Shown: in pieces, positions 5,285 through 63,411 of the stretch
Position numbering within the stretch: position 1 is the first letter of the stretch
How the letters are laid out: every line of letters starts with the position of its first letter
Assembly (NCBI GenBank): GCA_029858505.1
Contig: JAOUEW010000001.1
Span: forward strand, 248,001-312,000
Direction of reading: 5' to 3'
Source: Deltaproteobacteria bacterium
GTDB lineage: Bacteria > SAR324 > JACQKK01
DNA length: 64,000 nt
Notes under the pieces: model-generated
What the model saw: only the letters and a program-made list of their open reading frames with translations
Database searches by the model: none
What the model was told of the DNA's origin: nothing
Position numbers and translations under genes: made by a program

Positions 5285-5623
5285 TCAGGTGTGCTTGATG
5301 TAGGCGGCCAACGCACCCAGCAGCGGGATGAGAATGGCAAAAAACCACAGCATTTGCTGGCGGAGTTCTCGGTGAAATTCGGCCTTTAATTCACCCCGCA
5401 TGACCTGAATTTCGGCCCGAACGCCTTGGATTTCGGCCCGAACGCCCTGGATTTCGGCCCGAACGCCTTGGATTTCGATCCGCACAAGTTCCTTGGTGGC
5501 CAGGTCTTCCCGGGCGCTGTAAGCACCGGATTCGATGACCTCGGCCAGGCTTTGAGCCTGCGCGTGATTAAAGCCGGCGGCTTCCAGCTTGCGGGCGTTT
5601 TCCAGGGTTTCCGTGATGGGCAT
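5285..5623 (-). CDS. Coiled-coil DUF1640-like membrane protein
   Basis: 112 residues: an N-terminal helix pair (FNHAQAQSLAEVI), a coiled coil, and one C-terminal TM helix at about 91-109. The coiled coil contains three exact seven-residue repeats (IQGVRAE), encoded by three 21-bp direct repeats at about 5412-5477. This layout matches the DUF1640/CCDC90-like family, related to mitochondrial MCU-regulator-type proteins but of unknown role in bacteria. Variable heptad number between strains would be expected. Lies downstream of gmk, on the same strand, with a 70-base gap. Confidence 0.7.
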   Translation of the reverse strand: MPITETLENARKLEAAGFNHAQAQSLAEVIESGAYSAREDLATKELVRIEIQGVRAEIQGVRAEIQGVRAEIQVMRGELKAEFHRELRQQMLWFFAILIPLLGALAAYIKHT

Positions 5624-5693: not shown

Positions 5694-6446
5694 TTAGGTA
5701 AGGTTGCTTTCCAGGCTGGCGGCCACCAACCTTTCCAGGGTTTTGTCCAGGGTGCGGCCGATGTTCAGGCTGACCCGGCGGGTGAGGTGGTGAGACAGGT
5801 CCCGGCCAATGCGCTCCATTTCCTCGTGCACCTCGTCGTGTTCGGCGGCGGGGTCCACAAAGCGAAAGGGCACGTTCCGGGCAATTTCCATGTTCAAGAT
5901 GTTCAAAAACTCCAAGGCGGCGGTGTCTTTCTTGTCGTTCACCACCACGTGGTCGTACAGGTCCATGTGGGTCATTTCGTCGCGGGCTTTGTTCATGCGG
6001 CGGGAGAGGGATTCGGGGGTCTCGGTGCCGCGGTGCACCAGCCGCTGGCGCAGGGCCTCTAGGCTGGGGGGGGCCACGAAAATATAGCACCCCCCCCGAG
6101 ACAGCTCCCGCAGAGAGTGGGCCCCCTGGGTGTCAATGTCCAGCAACACCGAGTGGCCTTCTCGCAGGCGGGCGTGAATGTGGTCGCGGGAGGTGCCGTA
6201 GAGGTTGCCATACACTTCGGCCCATTCCAAAAAGCCATCCTTCTCGATCAGCCGCTGGAAGATTTCTCGGTTGACGAAAAAATAATGCACCCCGTTGGAT
6301 TCTCCGTGCCGCGGGGGGCGGGTGGTGTGGGAAATGGACATGACCAAGTCCGGGTGGTCCCGCAGGGCGGCCTGGATCAGGGTGGATTTTCCCACCCCGC
6401 TGGGGCCGGAAATCACGAATACACGGGGATGTGGTTTGTCGCTCAT
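5694..6446 (-). CDS. gmk: Guanylate kinase
   Basis: 250 residues. ATP-dependent phosphorylation of GMP to GDP in the cytoplasm. The P-loop GPSGVGKST is at 14-22, followed by the SISHTTRPPR GMP-binding segment, YFFV, FLEWAEVYGNLYGTS, and the LDIDTQGA motif. It is about 45 residues longer than E. coli Gmk because of a C-terminal tail (from about 205). Its ATG overlaps the yicC stop by four bases (ATGA), so it is the last gene of a tightly coupled operon with yicC and the WD40-like/J protein. The usual rpoZ does not follow. Confidence 0.95.
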   Translation of the reverse strand: MSDKPHPRVFVISGPSGVGKSTLIQAALRDHPDLVMSISHTTRPPRHGESNGVHYFFVNREIFQRLIEKDGFLEWAEVYGNLYGTSRDHIHARLREGHSVLLDIDTQGAHSLRELSRGGCYIFVAPPSLEALRQRLVHRGTETPESLSRRMNKARDEMTHMDLYDHVVVNDKKDTAALEFLNILNMEIARNVPFRFVDPAAEHDEVHEEMERIGRDLSHHLTRRVSLNIGRTLDKTLERLVAASLESNLT

Positions 6447-7324
6447 TCGATGTTCTGGGCCTGTTCCCGTAGTTTCTCCAGTTCCGATTTCAGTTCTACC
6501 CCCAGGCGGCTGATGTCTTGGTGCCCCCCCTTGGTGGTGAGGGTGTTGATTTCCCGGTTGAGTTCTTGAGACAGGAAGTCCATTTTTCTCCCCACGCTCC
6601 CCTGTTCTTCCATCAGTTGTTCCATGTGGTCCAAGTGGGCCATGAAGCGGGTGATTTCTTCGGTGACATCACATTTATCGGCGAATAAAGCCATTTCTAA
6701 AGCCACCCGCTCCGGGTCCACGGTTAGGCCGGGGTTCAGGCGGGCCAGGTTGTCTTTCAACCGCTGGGCGTAGAGGGCTGGCAGTTCCCGGGCCAGGGGC
6801 ACAATCTGCTCCATCAGGCCGCGCATCAGGGCCAGCCGGGCGGAAAGGTCCGCCTTCAGGGCTTGGCCCTCCACCCGCCGCATGGTGGTCAGTTGGTCCA
6901 GGGCCAAGCCCAGGGTGTCTTCGGCCAGGGCCCCCAGGGCTTCTTGGTTGTCTTCTCCCCCGCCAGGGGCGATTTCTTGAAACTCCATCATTTCACGCAG
7001 CGAAACCCGCAGGGGAATGCCCGCCTGCTCCGCTTGGCGGGCCAGTTGGGCCAGCCGGGCGAACGGGTTGGCCTGGGGCTGGCCAGCGCCATGATCGGGC
7101 GTGGCTGGCAGGTCTGGGGTGATGTGCATGGTGATTTCCACCTTGCCCCGTTCCAGCCGTTTTTTCACCACCGCCTTCAGGTCTTCTTCCAGGTGGGCCA
7201 GGGCCGGGGGCAGCCGCAAGCGGGGGTCTAAAAATCGAAAGTTGACCGAGCGGACCTCCACCCTGCACAGCCAGCCCCCGCGAGATTGTTCGGCCCGGCC
7301 AAAGCCGGTCATGGAAAGGATCAC
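6443..7324 (-). CDS. YicC family endoribonuclease
   Basis: 293 residues, starting at GTG 7324 (MILSMTGFGRAEQ), which matches the usual MIxSMTGF start of YicC proteins and overlaps the stop of the upstream gene as GTGA. The N-terminal YicC domain and the C-terminal DUF1732 domain (KCDVTEEITRFMAHLDH..., GRKMDFLSQELNREINT) are both complete. YicC in E. coli is linked to RNA degradation as an endoribonuclease. Association with gmk is widespread in proteobacteria. Both ends overlap neighbours by four bases, so translation is probably coupled. Confidence 0.9.
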   Translation of the reverse strand: MILSMTGFGRAEQSRGGWLCRVEVRSVNFRFLDPRLRLPPALAHLEEDLKAVVKKRLERGKVEITMHITPDLPATPDHGAGQPQANPFARLAQLARQAEQAGIPLRVSLREMMEFQEIAPGGGEDNQEALGALAEDTLGLALDQLTTMRRVEGQALKADLSARLALMRGLMEQIVPLARELPALYAQRLKDNLARLNPGLTVDPERVALEMALFADKCDVTEEITRFMAHLDHMEQLMEEQGSVGRKMDFLSQELNREINTLTTKGGHQDISRLGVELKSELEKLREQAQNIE

Positions 7325-9633
7325 CGGTTTTTTCTCCCTTGCTTGGCCAGTCGTTCGTCGTAGCGGGCCCGCCGCTGTTTGTCTTTCAACACTTCGTAGG
7401 CTTCTCCCAGTTTTCGGCTCATCTTTTCGGCCTCTTCTTTAATCCAGTTGAACCGGGCATGGGAGTGCATGTCGGGGTGATATTCTTTGATGCGTTTGTA
7501 ATAAGCGCTTTTCACCGCCTCGTCGCTGGCCCCAAAGGCCACCCCCAGCAGTTCATAATAAGAAGGCTCTCCCTGGGCTGGGGGGGGTTCGGCTTTGCCC
7601 GCTTGAATTTTCAGCCGGGCCAGTTGGGCCAGAATTTCCTCCAGCCGAGCGGCCATGCTGCCCAACCCGCTGGTGGCTCCCGACAACCGCCGGTGGCAGG
7701 TGCTCAGTTCCGCCTCCAGTTCCAAAAACAGCGCCGCGTGCTGGCGCTGGCTGTCGGCCTCGCGCAGCGAGCGGATTTTTCCCTCCGCCTGAAGCAGCAG
7801 CTGGTTCACCCGGGCCCGGGCGCCGGGGTCGTCGGCCCCGCGGGGTTTGGCGGGGCCGGGTTTCCCAGGGCGGGGCGGGGCCTTGGCTGGCGTGGGGCCG
7901 GTTTGGCGGGGCCGGGTAAACCGGTGGGCCCGCCAGCGTTCTTTCAGGGCCAGCAAATCCATCAACGGCTGGGCCAGAAACCGAAAGCGAATCATCAACA
8001 CCGCCATAATGCCCAGGGCCAACAAAAAGCCCAGCACCAGGGCGGCCAACTGCTGGGTATCTCCTCCCTCTTTTTCGTCAATGCGGGCTTTCAGGGCCAG
8101 GGCCCGGGAGTTGTGCTCATCCTTGCGCAGCACCTCATCGGCCATGGTGCGGGCGGCATGATACAGCCCCAGTTCGGTTTTTTCTTCGGCCTGGGCCAGG
8201 GTCAAATCCATGTTCCGCTTTTCTTCGGCCCGGCGGATCAGCTCCACCACTTCTGGATAGGCCGGGTCGGCGGGGTCCACGCTGCCGGTCAGCAGGTCCA
8301 GGGCGGCACGGTAGCGGCCTTCCTCAAAGGCTTGCCGGGCCAGGGCCAGCACCTGGGCCCCGTCGGCGGAGTGTTTTTCCGGGGCCAAAAAAGACGGAAA
8401 GCGGGGCCTGGCCTTGGCTTCGATTTCTTCCCGCATGTCTTCCATCAGGCTGGGGCTGATGCCCTCTGGGTCCAATTGGTGAAAAAAACTTTCGGCCACC
8501 GCCGTGGCTCCAGCCCCCTTCAACCGACGGATGTACTCCAGCGGAGAGCCCGGTTGGGAAAACCGATACAGCCGCAATTTTTTGCCGCTTCCCGCCAGCA
8601 GGTATTTCCCGGTGGAACTGGCGGCCAGGGCCGGGGGCACCGGCAGGTCCCACGGCGAGGCGGTTTTGCGGGTGCGGGTGTCGAGGGCCAGGGCCTTGCC
8701 CGCGGCAGCGCCGGGCAGCAGCAAATAGGGTTCGGCCAGCACCATCAGCCCGGCCTGTTCCGCCGTGTCGGGGAGTTTATCCAGGAACACCATGGATTCG
8801 GTGCGCCCCCCCAACTGCCAGGTGATGAGGTTCTTGCCCTGGTCCAGCGACAACAACCGCCCCCGCCCGGCCAGGGCCAGCCCCACCAGGGGAAAGCGGT
8901 GTCCAGTCAGGCCTGCCATTCGCCGGTGGTTGGCCAGGCTGAGCCATTGAATTTCTTTTTCGCCTTCCAGGTATAACGCCAGGCGGTTGTTGTCGGGGTC
9001 CAGGGTCATGCCTTTTACCGGGGCCCCTTCTCCGCTCCACACCGGGCCGGAAGCCGGGGGGCTTTGGGCGTGCACGGCCCGGGTAAAGACCTGGCCCCCC
9101 TGGGCCCAATACACCCGGTCGGGGTGCAGGGCAAATCCGGGGAACCCCAGGGCCCCCTTGCCCACGGCGGGCTGTTTCCACAGGCGGTGGCTGGGGTCTA
9201 GGGGTTTGCCCGCGCTCAACCGGCTGAGGGGGATGTCCCACAATTCCAGGCCGCCCTCCCCCGCCGCCACCAAGCGGTCTCCCAGGGGGGCGAAGGCCAG
9301 GGCGGTGACCCCAGTCAGGCTGGTTTCAACGACCCCCAGGGGGGCGTGGCTGCGGCGGTCGGTGAGGGTAATTTGCCCGCCTTCGGCGGAGGCCGCCGCC
9401 AGCAGCGATTCATCGGCGTTCACCGCCACGGCGGTGACGGTGAAGGGCTGGGAAATCTCGGCTTCTTGGCGCAGGGTCAGGGCTTCTGGGGCCCCCAGGG
9501 CGGTGCCCGTCAGCAGCCCGGCCAGTATGGCTGCCAGCAGCCCGGCCAACTGTAATCCTGGCCGCAGTTCCTCCCCGCCCATGGCCGTGTTTCGCAACCC
9601 AAGTATTTTTCTGGATGGGATGGCCTTGACCAT
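7321..9633 (-). CDS. Membrane protein with WD40-like propeller, TM helix and C-terminal J domain
   Basis: 770 residues from ATG 9633, preceded by GGAGTG at a good distance. Order: a hydrophobic leader near 25-45 (LAGLLAAILAGLLTG), a beta-propeller-like region to about 350 with repeats such as VTALAFAPLGDRLVAAGEGGLELWDI, a helical TPR-like segment (FEEGRYRAALDLL, GLYHAARTMADEVL), one TM helix (about 525-545, LVLGFLLALGIMAVLMI), a Pro/Ala-rich linker, a coiled coil, then a J domain (YYELLGVAFGASDEAVKSAY, HPD intact). The topology would place the propeller in the periplasm and the J domain in the cytoplasm, where it should stimulate DnaK. Stop overlaps yicC. No matching family name is known to me. 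Confidence 0.8.
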   Translation of the reverse strand: MVKAIPSRKILGLRNTAMGGEELRPGLQLAGLLAAILAGLLTGTALGAPEALTLRQEAEISQPFTVTAVAVNADESLLAAASAEGGQITLTDRRSHAPLGVVETSLTGVTALAFAPLGDRLVAAGEGGLELWDIPLSRLSAGKPLDPSHRLWKQPAVGKGALGFPGFALHPDRVYWAQGGQVFTRAVHAQSPPASGPVWSGEGAPVKGMTLDPDNNRLALYLEGEKEIQWLSLANHRRMAGLTGHRFPLVGLALAGRGRLLSLDQGKNLITWQLGGRTESMVFLDKLPDTAEQAGLMVLAEPYLLLPGAAAGKALALDTRTRKTASPWDLPVPPALAASSTGKYLLAGSGKKLRLYRFSQPGSPLEYIRRLKGAGATAVAESFFHQLDPEGISPSLMEDMREEIEAKARPRFPSFLAPEKHSADGAQVLALARQAFEEGRYRAALDLLTGSVDPADPAYPEVVELIRRAEEKRNMDLTLAQAEEKTELGLYHAARTMADEVLRKDEHNSRALALKARIDEKEGGDTQQLAALVLGFLLALGIMAVLMIRFRFLAQPLMDLLALKERWRAHRFTRPRQTGPTPAKAPPRPGKPGPAKPRGADDPGARARVNQLLLQAEGKIRSLREADSQRQHAALFLELEAELSTCHRRLSGATSGLGSMAARLEEILAQLARLKIQAGKAEPPPAQGEPSYYELLGVAFGASDEAVKSAYYKRIKEYHPDMHSHARFNWIKEEAEKMSRKLGEAYEVLKDKQRRARYDERLAKQGRKNR

Positions 9634-9717
9634 GAACAATCACACTCCGTTGGATACGAATGTTCAGCCTATTCACCCACCCGTGGATGGGGGGTGTTTT
9701 CTCCCGGGCTGCCTGGG

Positions 9718-10428
9718 TTAGTCAGGGTCAGCCTGCTGGGTTCCGGTTTTTTGCAGGGCCAGGTAAAACACGGGCTTTCCACGGGAGGCAAACATGGCCT
9801 CGAACTCGGAGCGGACCCGCCCCAGGGGAAGGGCAGACCGGTGCAAGTGGTTGGAAAACCCGTGAATCCGGCCCCAGGACACCCCGGGGAGCAACCCCAA
9901 AACATGCAAAAAATAACCCGAATGATCTGTTTTCAAGTGAAACAGACCCCCCGGTTTCAGGGCACAGCCGATGTCGTGAAGGAGCGTAGAGTTTACCATG
10001 CGGTTCCTCCACTGGGAAACCTTCACCCAGGGGTCGGGAAACAACACATAAACGTGATCCACCGTTTGGGGGGCGAAATAACGGGGAAAGGCTTCGGCGG
10101 GTTCCCGCAGCAGCCAGGCCCGCTGCCGCCCATCCCGCTCCAGTTTGCGGGCGGCCTGCACCAGCCGCTTGTAGCGCAGTTCGAAGCCCACCAGGTGGTC
10201 TTGGGGGTGCAGCCCGGCCAGTTGGGTGAGGAAATTCCCCGACCCGCTGCCCAGTTCCACGTGCAGGGCGGGGCCTTCTCCGGCCTGTTCCCTCCGCTGC
10301 TGCAATTCGGCAGGGGTGGGGTTGGCCAGCAAGCGGTCAGGGTGGTTATGCACCCAGCCAGTGTAGGGGTTCACCCAGCGGCGATGGACGGGGGGAATGG
10401 GGGGGCGGAGGGTTTCCATGGAGAACAT
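9718..10428 (-). CDS. trmB: tRNA (guanine-N7)-methyltransferase
   Basis: 236 residues with start taken at ATG 10428 (MFSMETLRPP). It forms m7G46 in tRNA variable loops using SAM. Seen: SAM-binding VELGSGSGNFL, the GFELRYKR segment, and the TrmB signature VLFPDPWVK followed by HLKTDH. No strong ribosome site precedes any candidate; 10419 or an upstream in-frame ATG near 10530 are alternatives. It lies 84 bases upstream of the WD40-like/J gene on the same strand and may be the first gene of that operon. Confidence 0.9.
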   Translation of the reverse strand: MFSMETLRPPIPPVHRRWVNPYTGWVHNHPDRLLANPTPAELQQRREQAGEGPALHVELGSGSGNFLTQLAGLHPQDHLVGFELRYKRLVQAARKLERDGRQRAWLLREPAEAFPRYFAPQTVDHVYVLFPDPWVKVSQWRNRMVNSTLLHDIGCALKPGGLFHLKTDHSGYFLHVLGLLPGVSWGRIHGFSNHLHRSALPLGRVRSEFEAMFASRGKPVFYLALQKTGTQQADPD

Positions 10429-10614
10429 GACAGCAAAAGGGTGAGGGGGAAAAACTGGGGGGTGATCGGGATATCCGCGTAGAGGGTGAAACCCCATTTC
10501 GTTCAACCTGACAAAACTTAACAATCCCAACGATTCCGTTTATCGTTTCTGTGATAGAGCGTTTCGCGTTTCCCGGCCAGGGGGTTCCCTGGCGCCCCCC
10601 CAGGACCCCCAGCC

Positions 10615-11595
10615 ATGACCGTGACGAACTTTTACAAAGTGCTTCAGGTAGACCCGGCGGCCTCGGTGGAGGTGATTAAGGGGGCCTACAAGGTGTTGTT
10701 AAAGTCGGGGCACCACCCGGACCTGGGGGGCAGCACCCAGGTGGCCTCGCTGCTGAACGAAGCCCACCAGGTGCTCACCAACCCCAAGACCCGGGCCGAG
10801 CACGACCACGCCTTGGGGCTGGGGGGCCATGGATCTGGAGGCCATGGCTCGGGGAGTCATGGCCGGGGCCGCCACCACGAGGCCTTGGCCGCGGAGACGG
10901 TGTTTATCGTGTTTTGCCCGGCCTGCCACGGCCAAAACCGGCTGGCCCACGAGGAAGAAATTCTCCACGCCAAATGCGGCCATTGCCACCGCCGGCTGCA
11001 GCCCAACCAGGATTCTCCCCTGGGGGGCGAGGACGACCGGGTGTACCGCTTGGGAATGTATTTGTTTGAGAAGGGCCTGTTCGAGCGAGCCCAGCGGGAG
11101 TTCCGCCAGGCCGTGCGGCTGAAACCCAACCATTCCACCTACCGCTATTGGCTGGCCCGCTGCCTGTACGAGCAAAAGCAGCCCGACAAAGCCCTGGTGG
11201 AAATCAAAGCCGCCATGCGGTTAAAACCCAACGCGTTTCATTTTCATTTTTGGCACGGGCAAATTTTGTATGGCATGAAAGATTTTCACCACGCCGCCGA
11301 TGCTTTTGCCCGGGCGGCGGAGCTGCGCCCCAGTCACGTGCCGTCGTTCCGGCGCCTTGGCACGTGCCACTACAACCTGCGCCAGTTTCCCCAAGCCATC
11401 GAGGCCTTTCAGCGGGCCGTTCAGGCCGACCCCAAAGACTCGCAAAGTTTTCGCTGGTTGGGGATTGCCCATTTGTCGACCAATGAATACGCCCTGGCCT
11501 TGGGGGCCTTTCAGCAGGCCGAGGCCTTGAGCCCGGAGGACGAACTGACCCGCCGCTACATTCAATTGTGCCAAGATCAAACCGCCAAAGGGTAA
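10615..11595 (+). CDS. J-domain protein with zinc ribbon and TPR repeats
   Basis: 326 residues. A J domain at 4-65 with HPD at 34-36, a Gly/His-rich linker at 69-88 (GGHGSGGHGSGSHGRG), a four-Cys zinc ribbon (C101, C104, C121, C124), then four to five TPR units from about 140 to 320 (FERAQREFRQAVRLKPN, PDKALVEIKAAMRLKPN and so on). The J domain indicates a DnaK co-chaperone; TPRs would bind a client or partner. The four-Cys ribbon is not the large DnaJ zinc-finger domain. It stands alone on the + strand, only 1 kb from the other J-domain gene. Specific job unknown. Confidence 0.8.
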   Translation: MTVTNFYKVLQVDPAASVEVIKGAYKVLLKSGHHPDLGGSTQVASLLNEAHQVLTNPKTRAEHDHALGLGGHGSGGHGSGSHGRGRHHEALAAETVFIVFCPACHGQNRLAHEEEILHAKCGHCHRRLQPNQDSPLGGEDDRVYRLGMYLFEKGLFERAQREFRQAVRLKPNHSTYRYWLARCLYEQKQPDKALVEIKAAMRLKPNAFHFHFWHGQILYGMKDFHHAADAFARAAELRPSHVPSFRRLGTCHYNLRQFPQAIEAFQRAVQADPKDSQSFRWLGIAHLSTNEYALALGAFQQAEALSPEDELTRRYIQLCQDQTAKG

Positions 11596-14362: not shown

Positions 14363-16033
14363 TTAGGGCGTTAAGGTAAAGGACGTGCCAGTGTTGATAT
14401 TATTGTAGATCACCCGGATGAAAATCGTAGCGTTGTTGGCCGTGGTGGTCACCACACAATTGTCTGCCGTGGTTCCAACATTCGCCGTGCAGGTGCCAGT
14501 TGGCGCCGTACCCGTGGAATTGGTAAAGGTGGCGACATCGGCATCATCCAGCAGGTTGGTCAAGTTGATGGTGTAGGTTCCCGCCGTGGGATAGACCACT
14601 TTGTAAAAACTAGTGGTAAGCACTTCACCGTTGTGGGCTGTGTTCGGAGTCAACAGAAGAGGAGTAAGGAGGGCCCCCTCGTTCAAGTACTCCGGCCAGG
14701 AAAACAGGGTGAAAGTGGCTCCCAGCGTGGAAACATCGGTGATCTTAATATACACCACCGTGTTGGCCGCCGCCGATGTCACCCCCGTGCAGCTGTCCAC
14801 CAGGGTTCCGGTATTCGCCGTGCAGGTTCCAGTGGCCACGCTGAACAGATTGTTGCTGAACGTGTTGATGTTGGCGTCATTCGTTAGACCCGACATTTTA
14901 ATTTTGTAGTTTTTAGCCAAGGGGAAGGTCACCTTGTAAAAGCCTTCTTTCCGGCCATTTGCCACAGATCCGGTGGTACTGACGCCATCCGGAAGCACCT
15001 TCAGGGGATCCACCTTCATGGTAAAGTTGGTACCCACGCCCGAAATGTCGGTTACTTTGATGAACACATCGGTGTTGGCCGCAGTGGTGGTAACCAAGCA
15101 TCTGTCTCCCGCGGCGGCCGTGTTAACCGTACAGACCCCGGTGGTCAGGGTGAAGATGCTGTCGGAATAGACTGTCACGTCAGCGTTCGCGGTCATTCCG
15201 CCCAGGGAAACGACGTATTCAGAAGCGATGGGAAGGGTGACGCGGTAATAGGCGTTCCCGTTGGCCGGAACGGATCGGTTGTCGATGTTCGAATAGCCGA
15301 CAAGGGGGACATAGGTCAGCACCATGTACAAATCCGGCTGCAGGGTATATCCCGTTCCGAGGCCCGATAGGTCGGTAACCTTAAAATAAATGGTCTGTCC
15401 CGCTGTTACCTGCACGTTGCAGTAGCCGTCTGTGTTGACGATGGCCTGCATGCAACCCGCTGTGGCCGCCGTCACGTATGTATTATTAGTGAAGGCGGTA
15501 ATGTCGGCGTTGGCATTCACACCGCGCATATAGGTTAGATAGGTTCCCGCCGTGGGATAAGTGATCTGATAATAACTGATGCCGTTGGCGGCCACTTGTC
15601 CGCTGTAGGCAGTTCCCTGGGTCAACACAATAGGTCCGCCTGCGCCAGTAGCACCCTCGCTGGCCCAGGCATTGTTCACGGTGACCGTGGTGCTGCCCGT
15701 AACGCCGCTTAAACTGGCCGAAATGGTGGCGGTGCCTGCCGCCACGCCGGTCACCGTGCCCGCCGACACCGTGGCCACACCGGAAGCGCTGGTGGACCAG
15801 GTGGCGGTGGCGGTGACATCTTGGCTGGTTCCGTCCGTCATGGTGGCGGTGGCGGTCAGGGTGGTGGTTAATCCTTTCTTCACCGTGGGGGTGGCCGGAG
15901 TAAGGGCAATGGATACCGGGGGATTGCTTCCGCCTCCACCACCTCCACCTCCTCCACCTCCTCCACCGCCGCAACTTGCCAGCGGCAGGGCCAGCAACAT
16001 CATCCCCCAAAGCAATCTGTTTCCGATACGCAT
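14363..16033 (-). CDS. Lipoprotein with Big_2-like domain and four PPC-like repeats
   Basis: 556 residues from ATG 16033 (RBS GGGAGA). A lipobox LAS-C21 is followed by a run of 14 Gly, then a bacterial Ig-like (Big_2) domain at about 37-120 (TPTVKKGLTTTLTATATMTDGTSQDVT...), then four repeats of 90-105 residues. Each repeat has a Y-x-V-T-P/TAGTY start, a two-Cys loop of the form TG-CTxN...DxC and an IKVTD-SG-GT-FTL end, typical of pre-peptidase C-terminal-like beta sandwiches. The paired Cys suggest one disulfide per repeat. Likely anchored in the outer membrane and exposed. A single-repeat relative lies at 39139-39573. The Gly run is encoded by a slippage-prone CC(A/T) repeat. Confidence 0.8.
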   Translation of the reverse strand: MRIGNRLLWGMMLLALPLASCGGGGGGGGGGGGGGSNPPVSIALTPATPTVKKGLTTTLTATATMTDGTSQDVTATATWSTSASGVATVSAGTVTGVAAGTATISASLSGVTGSTTVTVNNAWASEGATGAGGPIVLTQGTAYSGQVAANGISYYQITYPTAGTYLTYMRGVNANADITAFTNNTYVTAATAGCMQAIVNTDGYCNVQVTAGQTIYFKVTDLSGLGTGYTLQPDLYMVLTYVPLVGYSNIDNRSVPANGNAYYRVTLPIASEYVVSLGGMTANADVTVYSDSIFTLTTGVCTVNTAAAGDRCLVTTTAANTDVFIKVTDISGVGTNFTMKVDPLKVLPDGVSTTGSVANGRKEGFYKVTFPLAKNYKIKMSGLTNDANINTFSNNLFSVATGTCTANTGTLVDSCTGVTSAAANTVVYIKITDVSTLGATFTLFSWPEYLNEGALLTPLLLTPNTAHNGEVLTTSFYKVVYPTAGTYTINLTNLLDDADVATFTNSTGTAPTGTCTANVGTTADNCVVTTTANNATIFIRVIYNNINTGTSFTLTP

Positions 16034-16554
16034 GATTGAAATCTCCCGAGTGAGGTTGTGTGTTGAATGGCAAGAAACAGCCAAATTCAAATCAACACGA
16101 CGACACTGGAGAGTCATTAGCCCTACGCGCAAGAAATTAGCATTTCACGCAAGGCGTTATTCAGAAAACCACCCCATACTGAAATCTGTTTGAATATATT
16201 ATGGATAGAAATCAATGAGGTAGCCAAAATGAAAAATAAAAAAGAAAAGAAATATAAAGTATGGAAATATTGTGGGGAAAAATATGGGGAAGAAATAAGA
16301 GGAAAAAAGTGAGGAGGGGATGAGCACACCCAGGGTTAGAAAAAATCGTTCCGAAGAAAGACTGTCCCCCCCACAATATGTTTCAAGGATTAGGCCAAAA
16401 TAATTCCAGGCCCCAAACAACCCCCAGGCCGAGAGCGATCCTCCATGATATAAGGATATTCGGGCGGAGGGCCCCGGACTAGGCGAACAGTGGGCTGGGA
16501 AAAAGAACCACAATCTGCCGTAGTGTTGAGGAGATTGTGCCACAAGGAAAGGCG
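16034..16554. other. AT-rich divergent intergenic region
   Basis: 520 bases between the lipoprotein gene (minus) and mobA (plus). The part from 16150 to 16330 is strikingly A-rich on the plus strand compared with the surroundings. It must hold promoters for both genes. No RNA gene or convincing small ORF was recognised. Confidence 0.5.
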
Positions 16555-17301: not shown

Positions 17302-18309
17302 TCACTTCTCGCCGGGTGTGCTGTTCTTTGTCAGCAGTTCAAGAACCGATTTCGACCCGCCGCCCTCTCCTCCGGATTTGGAAAACCCGGTTTCTTGGGG
17401 GCTGTAAATGCACGCCGCAGCATGGGCCAAAATAATGTCCTCTGTTCCCCGCGCCTTCGCCGCTTCGGTCAGGGCCTGATACGTCAATAAAGCATTTTGT
17501 CGGTGGCGGTTCACAATTAAGTTGTGCCGACTGGCAGTGTAATTTTTGGCCGAGAAGGCAATGGCGAACGCCATGGTGGAGAACACCAAAATTTTCGTGG
17601 TGACGAACTGTACAAGCCCTTGGGTGGTATCGCTTATGGGCGAGACCCATTGGTTGTAAAACCATGCCGTAATAATAAATCCAACGGTCAAAATGGCTGT
17701 AATGCCAAGCCAAATAAACTGGCCCCAATGGTGCCGGGAGATTTCTTTTTGAAAGTGAACGGCCTCTTTGGAAACCCCGGCCTTCCCGGCAGCTTCTTGT
17801 ATGTGCACTATGGCACTATCTGCCTTGGCCACCGCATCCCTTATCTCTTGCAAATTTATATAGGCTTCTTTTGTTACGTTTTTTACATCATTAGTTACAC
17901 CTGCAATGTCTTTTTGTTGGATGACGTAAGATAGGGCATTTAAGTTTGCTAACCATAAAAAGATTTGAGTTTTAGTCGGATTATCGGATAGCAGTAGTTT
18001 TGCAATGGTTTGAATACCCATGATGACTCCCCCCTGTGTGGGAGAGGTTCTATATGAATTAATGTTATCGATGAATCTGCAAATGTCTGCCAAAAAAGGT
18101 TGGCTGGGAGGAGGTGTCAATCTAATTTTTAAATTCTCCAGTAAAACCCAATCAACATCACAAAGATTCCGAAGTGTTCTCCACGCAGTGGTTTGTTCTG
18201 TTGTTAAAGGGGACTCAAATTCCATGGCGATTTTTTCAAAATCTAAAGAACTAATTTTCTCTATGTATGTTCGCAGTTGGGTATGTTCTGGGAATATATT
18301 CTCAACCAT
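17302..18309 (-). CDS. Two-TM protein of unknown function, AT-rich
   Basis: 335 residues, ATG 18309 with an excellent RBS (GGAGGAAAA). A soluble N-terminal helical region (1-195) is followed by TM helices at about 198-218 and 238-254, then a conserved-looking cytoplasmic segment FSAKNYTASRHNLIVNRHRQ and a C-terminal part with AHAAACIYSPQETGF. The gene is clearly lower in GC than carB and mobA on either side, which suggests transfer. The two-TM plus soluble-domain plan resembles predicted membrane effectors of nucleotide-signalling defence systems (SLATT-like), but no nucleotidyltransferase or other partner is adjacent, so this stays speculative. Not otherwise recognised. Confidence 0.75.
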   Translation of the reverse strand: MVENIFPEHTQLRTYIEKISSLDFEKIAMEFESPLTTEQTTAWRTLRNLCDVDWVLLENLKIRLTPPPSQPFLADICRFIDNINSYRTSPTQGGVIMGIQTIAKLLLSDNPTKTQIFLWLANLNALSYVIQQKDIAGVTNDVKNVTKEAYINLQEIRDAVAKADSAIVHIQEAAGKAGVSKEAVHFQKEISRHHWGQFIWLGITAILTVGFIITAWFYNQWVSPISDTTQGLVQFVTTKILVFSTMAFAIAFSAKNYTASRHNLIVNRHRQNALLTYQALTEAAKARGTEDIILAHAAACIYSPQETGFSKSGGEGGGSKSVLELLTKNSTPGEK

Positions 18310-59389: not shown

Positions 59390-60043
59390 CTAATACGGAT
59401 CGGGATCGTTATTTTCGAACATATAGTCCCTCGATTCATCTTGATCGATGTCTTTCAAGTTGCCAAGATATTCATTGCATCCATAAAAGTACCCATCAAC
59501 CGCCTTTATGCAATCCGCAAGTGTCGGTAGGTGTAAACGGTCATAATCGGCTGGAACAGGATTTCCCTTCGTATCAACGGGGTATCGAAAGGAAAAAGAA
59601 TTGGGGTCAATTTTTGCAAACTCAAGGATGTTCTCTTTAACTACGTGATCGCTTTCTGTTAAGTCAAACTTGTTAAGCTCCAACACTTTCATGAATTCCT
59701 TCCAAAGTGTGCCGAGGCAGTGGCTTTTCCAATTGGCTTCAATGCCGACAATAGGGCCATATTCTGCCAACAGATACTTAAGCCATAACTCCAAGAAATG
59801 GCGATAGTTGAAGATTATCGGGAAGACAAGTGAGTCTCTCATATGGTGCTCACTCACTGATTTGTCTACCATCAGGTCAGCAGCTTCCTTGTAGCCTTGG
59901 ATCATCCGTTCAAACCGAAATGCACCTGTGATGTTGGCGTTGTCGTGTGGGTCGTCGGCTACGGCAAATAGCTTATCGCCTTTTGTGGGCCATCGGATTT
60001 CAGATGCCGATAAAAGATATTCGCCCGATTTATCATTGGTCAT
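59390..60043 (-). CDS. HEPN-like hypothetical protein, AT-rich
   Basis: 217 residues, ATG 60043. A helical protein with NYRHFLELWLKYLLAEYG and a SHCLGTLWKEFMKVLE helix, patterns seen in HEPN-like nucleotide/RNA-binding toxins, followed by SFSFRYPVDTKGNPV. The gene is much lower in GC than its neighbours, suggesting transfer. No nucleotidyltransferase partner. A terminator follows. HEPN is a tentative call; the family is otherwise unknown to me. Confidence 0.55.
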   Translation of the reverse strand: MTNDKSGEYLLSASEIRWPTKGDKLFAVADDPHDNANITGAFRFERMIQGYKEAADLMVDKSVSEHHMRDSLVFPIIFNYRHFLELWLKYLLAEYGPIVGIEANWKSHCLGTLWKEFMKVLELNKFDLTESDHVVKENILEFAKIDPNSFSFRYPVDTKGNPVPADYDRLHLPTLADCIKAVDGYFYGCNEYLGNLKDIDQDESRDYMFENNDPDPY

Positions 60044-62073: not shown

Positions 62074-63372
62074 TTATTGTGCTGCCTCCTGTATCTTCTG
62101 CTGCCACGCCAGCACCACGGCTTTGTTTCCCTTGGCCACCGCTTCAATGATTGTTGCCAATTCCGCTGTTTCGGCTTTGTGCGTTCCAATATAACCTGAA
62201 CGGATCAACCCGAGCATATCGGCCTCTCGGAGGTAAGTTCCGTCCAGGGCGTTGTAACTGATACGAACTCCACCCTTCGGGCCTTTGGCCTCAGGGGCGG
62301 AAAGGATATGGTTTAGATGGTCAAGAGAGACAAGAAACGATTTATGCGTGTTGCCTGAGATTTTGCGCCTCACAAATTTGAAGAAAAATGGATTACGGCT
62401 CAGCCTGTAATCGCTCAAGGAACCTTCAAAGTCAGGAATTTGCATGCGGGCTATTTCATCACGCAACTGCTGGTTAGGACGAAACAGCCAATCAGGGTTG
62501 TCACTGTCTTGCTTGTCTTCTTCAAGCATCTTGTACTGGAGCATAATGATGTTGCCCCGGGTTTCGTTGATGTAGATGAGGTCAACACCCAACAGCCTCT
62601 CCAAGGGCAGTTTGTTGGCGGTGTAAATCACTAGTTGCTCGCCGTCCTTCCGAAAAACGGCCCGCCCTGTCACATCATGGGATATCTTATCGAAGCCGGG
62701 CAGTTGTGTTGCATCATGATGCACCACGTTATCCTCATAGAGGTAAGTTCCGATAAGACCGAGGCAGGATGATGCGCCCCTCTTCAGAACAACTTGTTCC
62801 GGTGTGTCATTACCCCGAATTCTAAAAATATCCATTGCCGACCTAATGGCATCTTCTTGTGCCCAGGGGTTATCTGTAACGCGCCTCAACCCAGGTAAAA
62901 GGGAAAAAGCCATATCCAGGGCCGAATGATTTTCAGGATTTTTTGCCAGAGTTTCGACTAGGTGAGCACTAAGTTTGGGCGTGAGGTTTGTAATTCCCCC
63001 TTTATCAGGCATGCGATCAACCAGGATGCGCTTCATTTTTGCGTCAGAGATTAACGCTTCAATGGCTTGAAAGGAATCAGGGTGCAAGGCACGCAGTTCT
63101 TTAATGGTGAGGCGAGAATCGAACGTGCTCACGGTTGTTTTGCGGGAAACCGTGGCCAGGTAGCACTTGGTTCCATTGCCTTCTTGTATTTCCAGCAAAC
63201 AAAGCGTTGGTGGTTTGATCGGCTGGAGGACAGAGTGGGTCTTTACTATGGTGAGGTGTTTGAACCCCTGCCGCGAATTGTGCAAGGACTCCGAAAAATC
63301 CTCATCAAAGCGAATCAAAATCATGGGCTTCTTCTGAACCCATTTGCAGATGTCTTCGGCGGTGAAGGGCAT
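62074..63372 (-). CDS. Unrecognised 432-residue protein, AT-rich insert
   Basis: 432 residues, starting at ATG 63372 inside the direct repeat, so its first eight residues (MPFTAEDI) and its ribosome site are copies of those of the methyltransferase. An earlier Met at 63402 is not favoured. No TM helices or signal sequence. Central region: KRGASSCLGLIGTYLYEDNVVHHDATQLPGFDKISHDVTGRAVF and DLIYINETRGNIIMLQYKMLEED, the latter reminiscent of the ExK-type nuclease core (D...Q-Y-K), which would suggest a PD-(D/E)xK-like fold; this is a weak visual match. Lower GC than its neighbours. Confidence 0.7.
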   Translation of the reverse strand: MPFTAEDICKWVQKKPMILIRFDEDFSESLHNSRQGFKHLTIVKTHSVLQPIKPPTLCLLEIQEGNGTKCYLATVSRKTTVSTFDSRLTIKELRALHPDSFQAIEALISDAKMKRILVDRMPDKGGITNLTPKLSAHLVETLAKNPENHSALDMAFSLLPGLRRVTDNPWAQEDAIRSAMDIFRIRGNDTPEQVVLKRGASSCLGLIGTYLYEDNVVHHDATQLPGFDKISHDVTGRAVFRKDGEQLVIYTANKLPLERLLGVDLIYINETRGNIIMLQYKMLEEDKQDSDNPDWLFRPNQQLRDEIARMQIPDFEGSLSDYRLSRNPFFFKFVRRKISGNTHKSFLVSLDHLNHILSAPEAKGPKGGVRISYNALDGTYLREADMLGLIRSGYIGTHKAETAELATIIEAVAKGNKAVVLAWQQKIQEAAQ

Positions 63373-63392
63373 GGGGGTCTCTGGTTGAAGAG
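63349..63392. repeat. Direct repeat, copy at start of the 432-residue gene
   Basis: Partner of 61837-61880. It ends exactly at codon 8 of the downstream gene. Confidence 0.95.
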
Positions 63393-63411
63393 TGCGCTTC
63401 AATTTGAACCA

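Follow-up and report, generated by a model that had tools for sequence, protein, structure and literature searches.

Does a bacterial J-domain protein with a WD40-like part span the inner membrane and, if so, what would it do there? The question is raised by two neighbouring genes in the window, i.e. the whole stretch of 64,000 nucleotides analysed here, for which a preliminary description reported two J-domain open reading frames about 1 kb apart. Both are indeed present. The first gene, hereafter called A, lies on the minus strand (7321..9633) and codes for a protein of 770 residues, and the second, B, lies on the plus strand (10615..11595) and codes for a protein of 326 residues. They are 982 bp apart, with trmB on the minus strand between them.

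The A protein is composed, in this order, of a signal peptide, a WD40-type propeller, TPR-like helices, a transmembrane (TM) helix, a coiled coil and a J domain. Its length of 770 residues corresponds to a start at the ATG codon at 9633, and an alternative TTG two codons earlier would yield 772 residues. Residues 1-48 (9490..9633, minus strand, as are all the parts of A) form a Sec-type signal peptide region, with a hydrophobic core at residues ~29-47 and an ALG/AP site. They precede the WD40-type beta-propeller (residues ~54-362, 8548..9474), which was detected with Pfam WD40 and by profile comparison with the PDB and is predicted to lie outside the inner membrane. C-terminal to the propeller, we found a conserved helical segment (residues 363-400), TPR-like helices (residues 426-524, 8062..8358) with one repeat fewer than in other family members, and a single TM helix (residues 530-548, 7990..8046) of predicted N-out/C-in orientation. 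The cytoplasmic part harbours a conserved coiled-coil/helical segment (residues 601-672, 7618..7833; 40-48% identity within families) and a J domain with an HPD motif (residues ~690-759, 7357..7566; Pfam E-value 6e-17, 62 bits vs a cut-off of 27.8). Of these parts, the TPR-like segment between the propeller and the TM helix and the conserved coiled coil between the TM helix and the J domain are additions to the preliminary description. An Asp residue and a Glu-Ala-Glu motif are near-invariant in the coiled-coil/helical segment, which has no Pfam match and may represent an unnamed domain. The order of the domains is identical in 28 homologues from three families, and neither NCBIfam nor Pfam contains a full-length model for A.

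The propeller was examined with several types of comparisons. One WD40 repeat of A scores above the Pfam cut-off. A profile made from the part preceding the J domain in 19 A homologues matched PDB chains of solved WD40 propellers, with E-values of 9e-22 for PkwA and 2e-21 for a designed WD40 protein. These matches cover two stretches of the profile, 43-129 and 190-355, corresponding to ~2 and ~4 blades. Propeller models also recurred in the 19 aligned members, THOC3 in 10 and EML in 8 of them (E-values up to 0.01). The AlphaFold model computed from the single A sequence, whose mean pLDDT is 47.9 with values of ~30-50 in the propeller region, does not resolve the propeller. We consider that there is good sequence evidence for the presence of this domain. 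With its Pfam J and WD40 matches, the PDB profile matches and the single TM helix further downstream, A thus conforms to the transmembrane WD40-like/J fusion initially proposed.

A hydrophobic segment is found at the N-terminus of every A homologue in which this end is intact. Cleavage sites after its core are typically of the A-x-A or A-x-G types (ALG/A, ASA/Q, AMA/Q, ALA/Q, AWA/E). In 18 of 19 homologues, the stretch that follows the TM helix has a more positive net charge than the one that precedes it, the exception having basic patches that flank the helix on both sides. Because of the N-terminal signal with its cleavage sites, the single later TM helix and the positive-inside charge distribution, the propeller and the TPR-like helices are predicted to be outside, and the coiled coil and the J domain inside, the inner membrane. 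By sequence, A therefore has the features of type I membrane proteins, namely a signal peptide, one stop-transfer TM helix and positive charges inside. The propeller would be outside even if the signal remained uncleaved. The topology suggested in the preliminary description, with an external propeller and an internal J domain, is thus also the predicted one, and the propeller region is not predicted to be cytoplasmic.

The J domain is the best conserved part of the protein. HPD, H723 and W730 are present in 28/28 homologues, and the lineage signature HPDxH....FxW is found in all of them, bar one Tyr replacing Phe. The position of DnaJ Arg22 is occupied by Lys or Arg in all 28 proteins and that of Tyr25 by Tyr or Phe, and the equivalents of Lys26 and Arg27 vary. 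The mean pairwise identity is 52% for the J domain, 38% for the helical segment after the propeller, 33% for the coiled coil, 32% for the TPR-like helices, 27% for the propeller, 22% for the TM helix and 18-19% for the linkers. The propeller is thus the most variable folded part, with greater constancy in the cytoplasmic module and in the regions next to the TM helix. We did not find the features of class A and B J proteins in A, namely the G/F region, the C-terminal substrate-binding domains and the zinc finger. The DnaJ model matched the J domain alone, with 54.9 bits vs 377.2, and Pfam gave no C-terminal-domain match. The same holds for the DjlA model PRK09430, which matched the J domain alone with 22.8 bits vs a cut-off of 162. 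Pfam searches of A yielded no TerB match up to an E-value of 1 and no kinase domain. Four loci from a named genome collection were discarded as counterparts, two coding for full-length DnaJ and two for other J proteins, none of them with the A architecture.

As for Hsp70 partners, the genome of the window has a canonical dnaK gene beside dnaJ, and this pair would supply a partner for A. The same genome has another Hsp70 at C1:196903-200081, close to a weak J-domain match, and such second copies are common across the phylum. A dedicated second Hsp70 was rejected as the partner of A, since such copies are also found in a genus devoid of A and there is thus no co-occurrence signal.

Our genome and profile searches covered the phylum of the window, represented by 52 species. 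This small phylum is probably SAR324, a lead given by an exact match to the SAR324-1412 probe target within a 16S gene of one species of the same order, though not in the genome of the window. A was identified in 30 of them, in many independent assemblies, which led us to reject the idea of an assembly artefact or a local oddity and shows that the fusion extends well beyond the genome in which it was first noticed. All 10 genomes of the window's family have A, as do 10 of the 31 genomes of its sister family, in which one more genome has part of a J domain close to the end of a contig. A is missing throughout one sister-family genus (17 genomes) and from the only genome that represents a third family. 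Since most members of this 17-species genus retain yicC and Hsp70, A is dispensable. In a family from another order, A is present in 10/10 genomes, with one frame broken by a run of N. These proteins are distant from those of the window's family (without the J domain, profile E-values of ~1e-14 to 1e-21), and their order is unchanged, with a signal, the propeller region, TPR-like helices, a TM helix, a coiled coil and a J domain with HPD. A maximum-likelihood tree of 28 A proteins follows taxonomy, each family forming one clade with 99-100% bootstrap support. The conserved domain order in the 28 homologues and the congruence of the tree with taxonomy argue for long vertical retention of the fusion, which is probably ancestral to the phylum and was lost later in some lineages.

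We then considered the genetic environment of A. Immediately upstream is trmB (9718..10530, minus strand), coding for a protein of the tRNA methyltransferase family, and downstream are yicC (6443..7324, minus strand), for a YicC-family endoribonuclease, and gmk (5694..6446, minus strand), for guanylate kinase, all three identified with Pfam. The stop codon of A and the GTG start of yicC overlap by 4 nt (GTGA, 7321..7324, minus strand), as do yicC and gmk in the window. The arrangement gmk-yicC-A-trmB with a divergent B is found in all nine relatives in the window's family, one of them being split across two contigs inside trmB and another having gmk cut by a contig end. In this family, A and yicC overlap by 4 nt in 8/10 genomes and are separated by 5 or 8 nt in the other two; in the family from the other order, the gaps are 14-118 nt. 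The latter family has trmB next to A in 10/10 genomes, as does the window's family, and lacks gmk and B at this locus. Both sides of the deepest split have the order trmB-A-yicC, which is found in 10/10 genomes of the window's family and 9/10 of the other-order family. These junctions indicate that tight coupling to yicC is a trait of the window's family and that the linkage with trmB and yicC is older. In the two sister-family neighbourhoods that were read fully, A follows a nucleotide-sugar epimerase/decarboxylase-type gene and is opposite recA and a selenouridine-synthase-like gene (names from sequence reading), and in this family yicC is apart from A. This relocation indicates that the trmB-A-yicC operon is not obligatory. 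The 4-nt overlaps are consistent with the translational coupling of A to yicC and gmk proposed at the outset. The link with yicC is deeply conserved, but that with gmk is limited to the window's family and the sister family has yicC elsewhere.

Some other frames of the window deserve mention. Between gmk and rpiA, a 112-residue frame (5285-5623, minus strand), in which seven residues (EIQGVRA) are repeated in tandem and which has a hydrophobic stretch at its C-terminal end, has a likeness to small coiled-coil membrane proteins. Another frame (14363-16132, minus strand) codes for a secreted lipoprotein-like protein in which a long Gly run comes after the signal region and which also has an Ig-like stretch and several domains that are repeated. 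Finally, the frames at 17302-18309, 59390-60043 and 62074-63402 have third-position G+C contents of 0.47-0.56, vs ~0.7-0.84 for most genes of the window, and are possibly recent arrivals or non-genes.

The B protein is predicted to be cytoplasmic and consists of a J domain, a linker, a four-Cys ribbon and TPRs. Its J domain (residues 5-64, 10627..10812, plus strand, as are all the parts of B) scores 38.3 bits with Pfam and has HPD in 10/10 members. The ribbon (10915..10986) is of the CxxC...CxxC type, with Cys residues 101, 104, 121 and 124 invariant in 10/10 members, and the TPR solenoid (residues 139-325, 11029..11589) was identified with Pfam and has a folded model with pLDDT values >90. 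This makeup agrees with the preliminary description except for the Gly/His-rich linker (10813..10899), which is an insertion in the copy of this genome only and is not conserved. B is present in 10/10 members of the window's family, divergent from trmB, with scores of 442-505 bits. Elsewhere in the phylum no protein reached a comparable score, the best others being at ~79 bits and matching the TPRs only. The expected co-occurrence of A and B thus holds throughout the window's family but not beyond it, as the sister family and the other order have A without B, and we rejected the notion of an obligatory pair. A search for a promoter-like site upstream of B gave matches at chance level only. B is predicted to be a soluble adaptor of the J/TPR type, distinct from A and added next to the operon in the window's family. 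Like B, the J-TPR co-chaperones DNAJC3 and DNAJC7 have a J domain joined to TPRs, but in B the order is reversed, with the J domain first, a four-Cys ribbon lies between the two, and the protein is restricted to one bacterial family within the phylum searched.

What could be the function of A? Comparative sequence analyses document its architecture, conservation, predicted topology and gene order, and from there we infer docking, interaction with DnaK and a client. We favour the reading, which we hold to be fairly probable, that A belongs to the class C J proteins, is tethered to the membrane and brings DnaK to one fixed site of the envelope. The protein would be exported so that its propeller and TPR-like helices are periplasmic, with one TM helix as an anchor, and the outside part would dock on an envelope partner. 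The coiled coil would space or oligomerise the cytoplasmic part, and the J domain would stimulate DnaK at the membrane site, where DnaK would act on a particular client. It is reasonable to infer, as did the preliminary description, that A ties an outside signal or scaffold to DnaK.

Other roles can be envisaged on the basis of the same features. A might be a transmembrane sensor, with a ligand or a misfolded protein on the propeller altering the availability of the J domain and thereby raising or lowering the activity of DnaK, and perhaps that of YicC from the same operon, by a logic akin to that of PknD or of IRE1 and PERK. The predicted one-TM receptor topology, a propeller more variable than the cytoplasmic module, as might suit varied cues, and the 4-nt coupling to yicC in 8/10 genomes are consistent with such a role. 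However, no conserved ligand pocket was identified in A, A and yicC are less tightly coupled in the other order and not at all in the sister family, and no bacterial J protein is known to us to signal across a membrane in this manner; we thus regard a sensor as unlikely. The proposal of a receptor whose output is Hsp70 recruitment, in which the periplasmic propeller senses an envelope condition and gates the J domain, as an ancestral trait of the phylum that the operon would link to the YicC RNase, appears quite unlikely to us.

The outside part might alternatively contact the Sec or outer-membrane assembly machineries, with the J domain recruiting DnaK to precursors before export. BamB and YfgM are known envelope assembly factors that the propeller and TPR parts resemble, and the J domain is predicted to be on the precursor side of the membrane. 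Nevertheless, no sec, bam or lol genes are found beside A in the window or in the three neighbourhoods read fully (L062, L067 and L100), the others having been compared with the window's own genes only, and many close relatives that also need protein export lack A, making a role in envelope protein biogenesis improbable. Lastly, A might bring DnaK to YicC or RNA-protein complexes at the membrane, with trmB belonging to the same RNA-quality response. YicC forms a large clamshell hexamer, which makes it a plausible chaperone client, and its physiological role is still open (PMC10793500). The order trmB-A-yicC has survived the deepest split, but expression reasons alone can preserve operon order, A and yicC are apart in the sister family, and most members of the 17-species genus devoid of A retain yicC. 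We consider a functional coupling of A and YicC highly unlikely. A defence system was rejected because PADLOC gave no match for A and only a generic TPR match for B, and so were the MoxR-vWA/propeller and DnaJ-fused conflict systems (PMC7159879), whose partner genes and architectures differ.

If A is indeed a membrane-tethered recruiter of DnaK, a large outside propeller inherited vertically throughout a phylum would allow DnaK to be positioned, or even controlled, from the periplasm. A also represents a definite gene to study in a phylum that has received little attention, and it provides YicC with a conserved neighbour. In the literature searched, which did not include the main survey of prokaryotic J-domain architectures by Barriot et al. 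(2020), no bacterial J protein was described as having both a TM helix and an extracytoplasmic propeller, and we provisionally consider A a novel, undescribed variant of membrane-anchored J proteins.

Class C is a heterogeneous group of J proteins that may have TM regions, and DjlB and DjlC are tail-anchored membrane J proteins of E. coli (PMC8215388). A shares with DjlA, DjlB and DjlC of E. coli a J domain on the cytoplasmic face, one TM anchor and membership of class C. DjlA has an N-terminal TM helix and a TerB domain and, unlike A, is devoid of an extracytoplasmic propeller; to our knowledge, little or no part of the well-known bacterial membrane J proteins lies outside the membrane. PkwA-type bacterial proteins have a WD40 propeller like that of A, PkwA being the best PDB match of the A profile, but PkwA is a Ser/Thr kinase fusion without a J domain. 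The overall layout of A is reminiscent of receptor kinases of the PknD type, with a propeller outside and a kinase inside, and of IRE1 and PERK, with a propeller-like sensor outside and an effector inside, all of them with one TM helix. In A, by contrast, the effector is a J domain rather than a kinase and the propeller is of the WD40 type.
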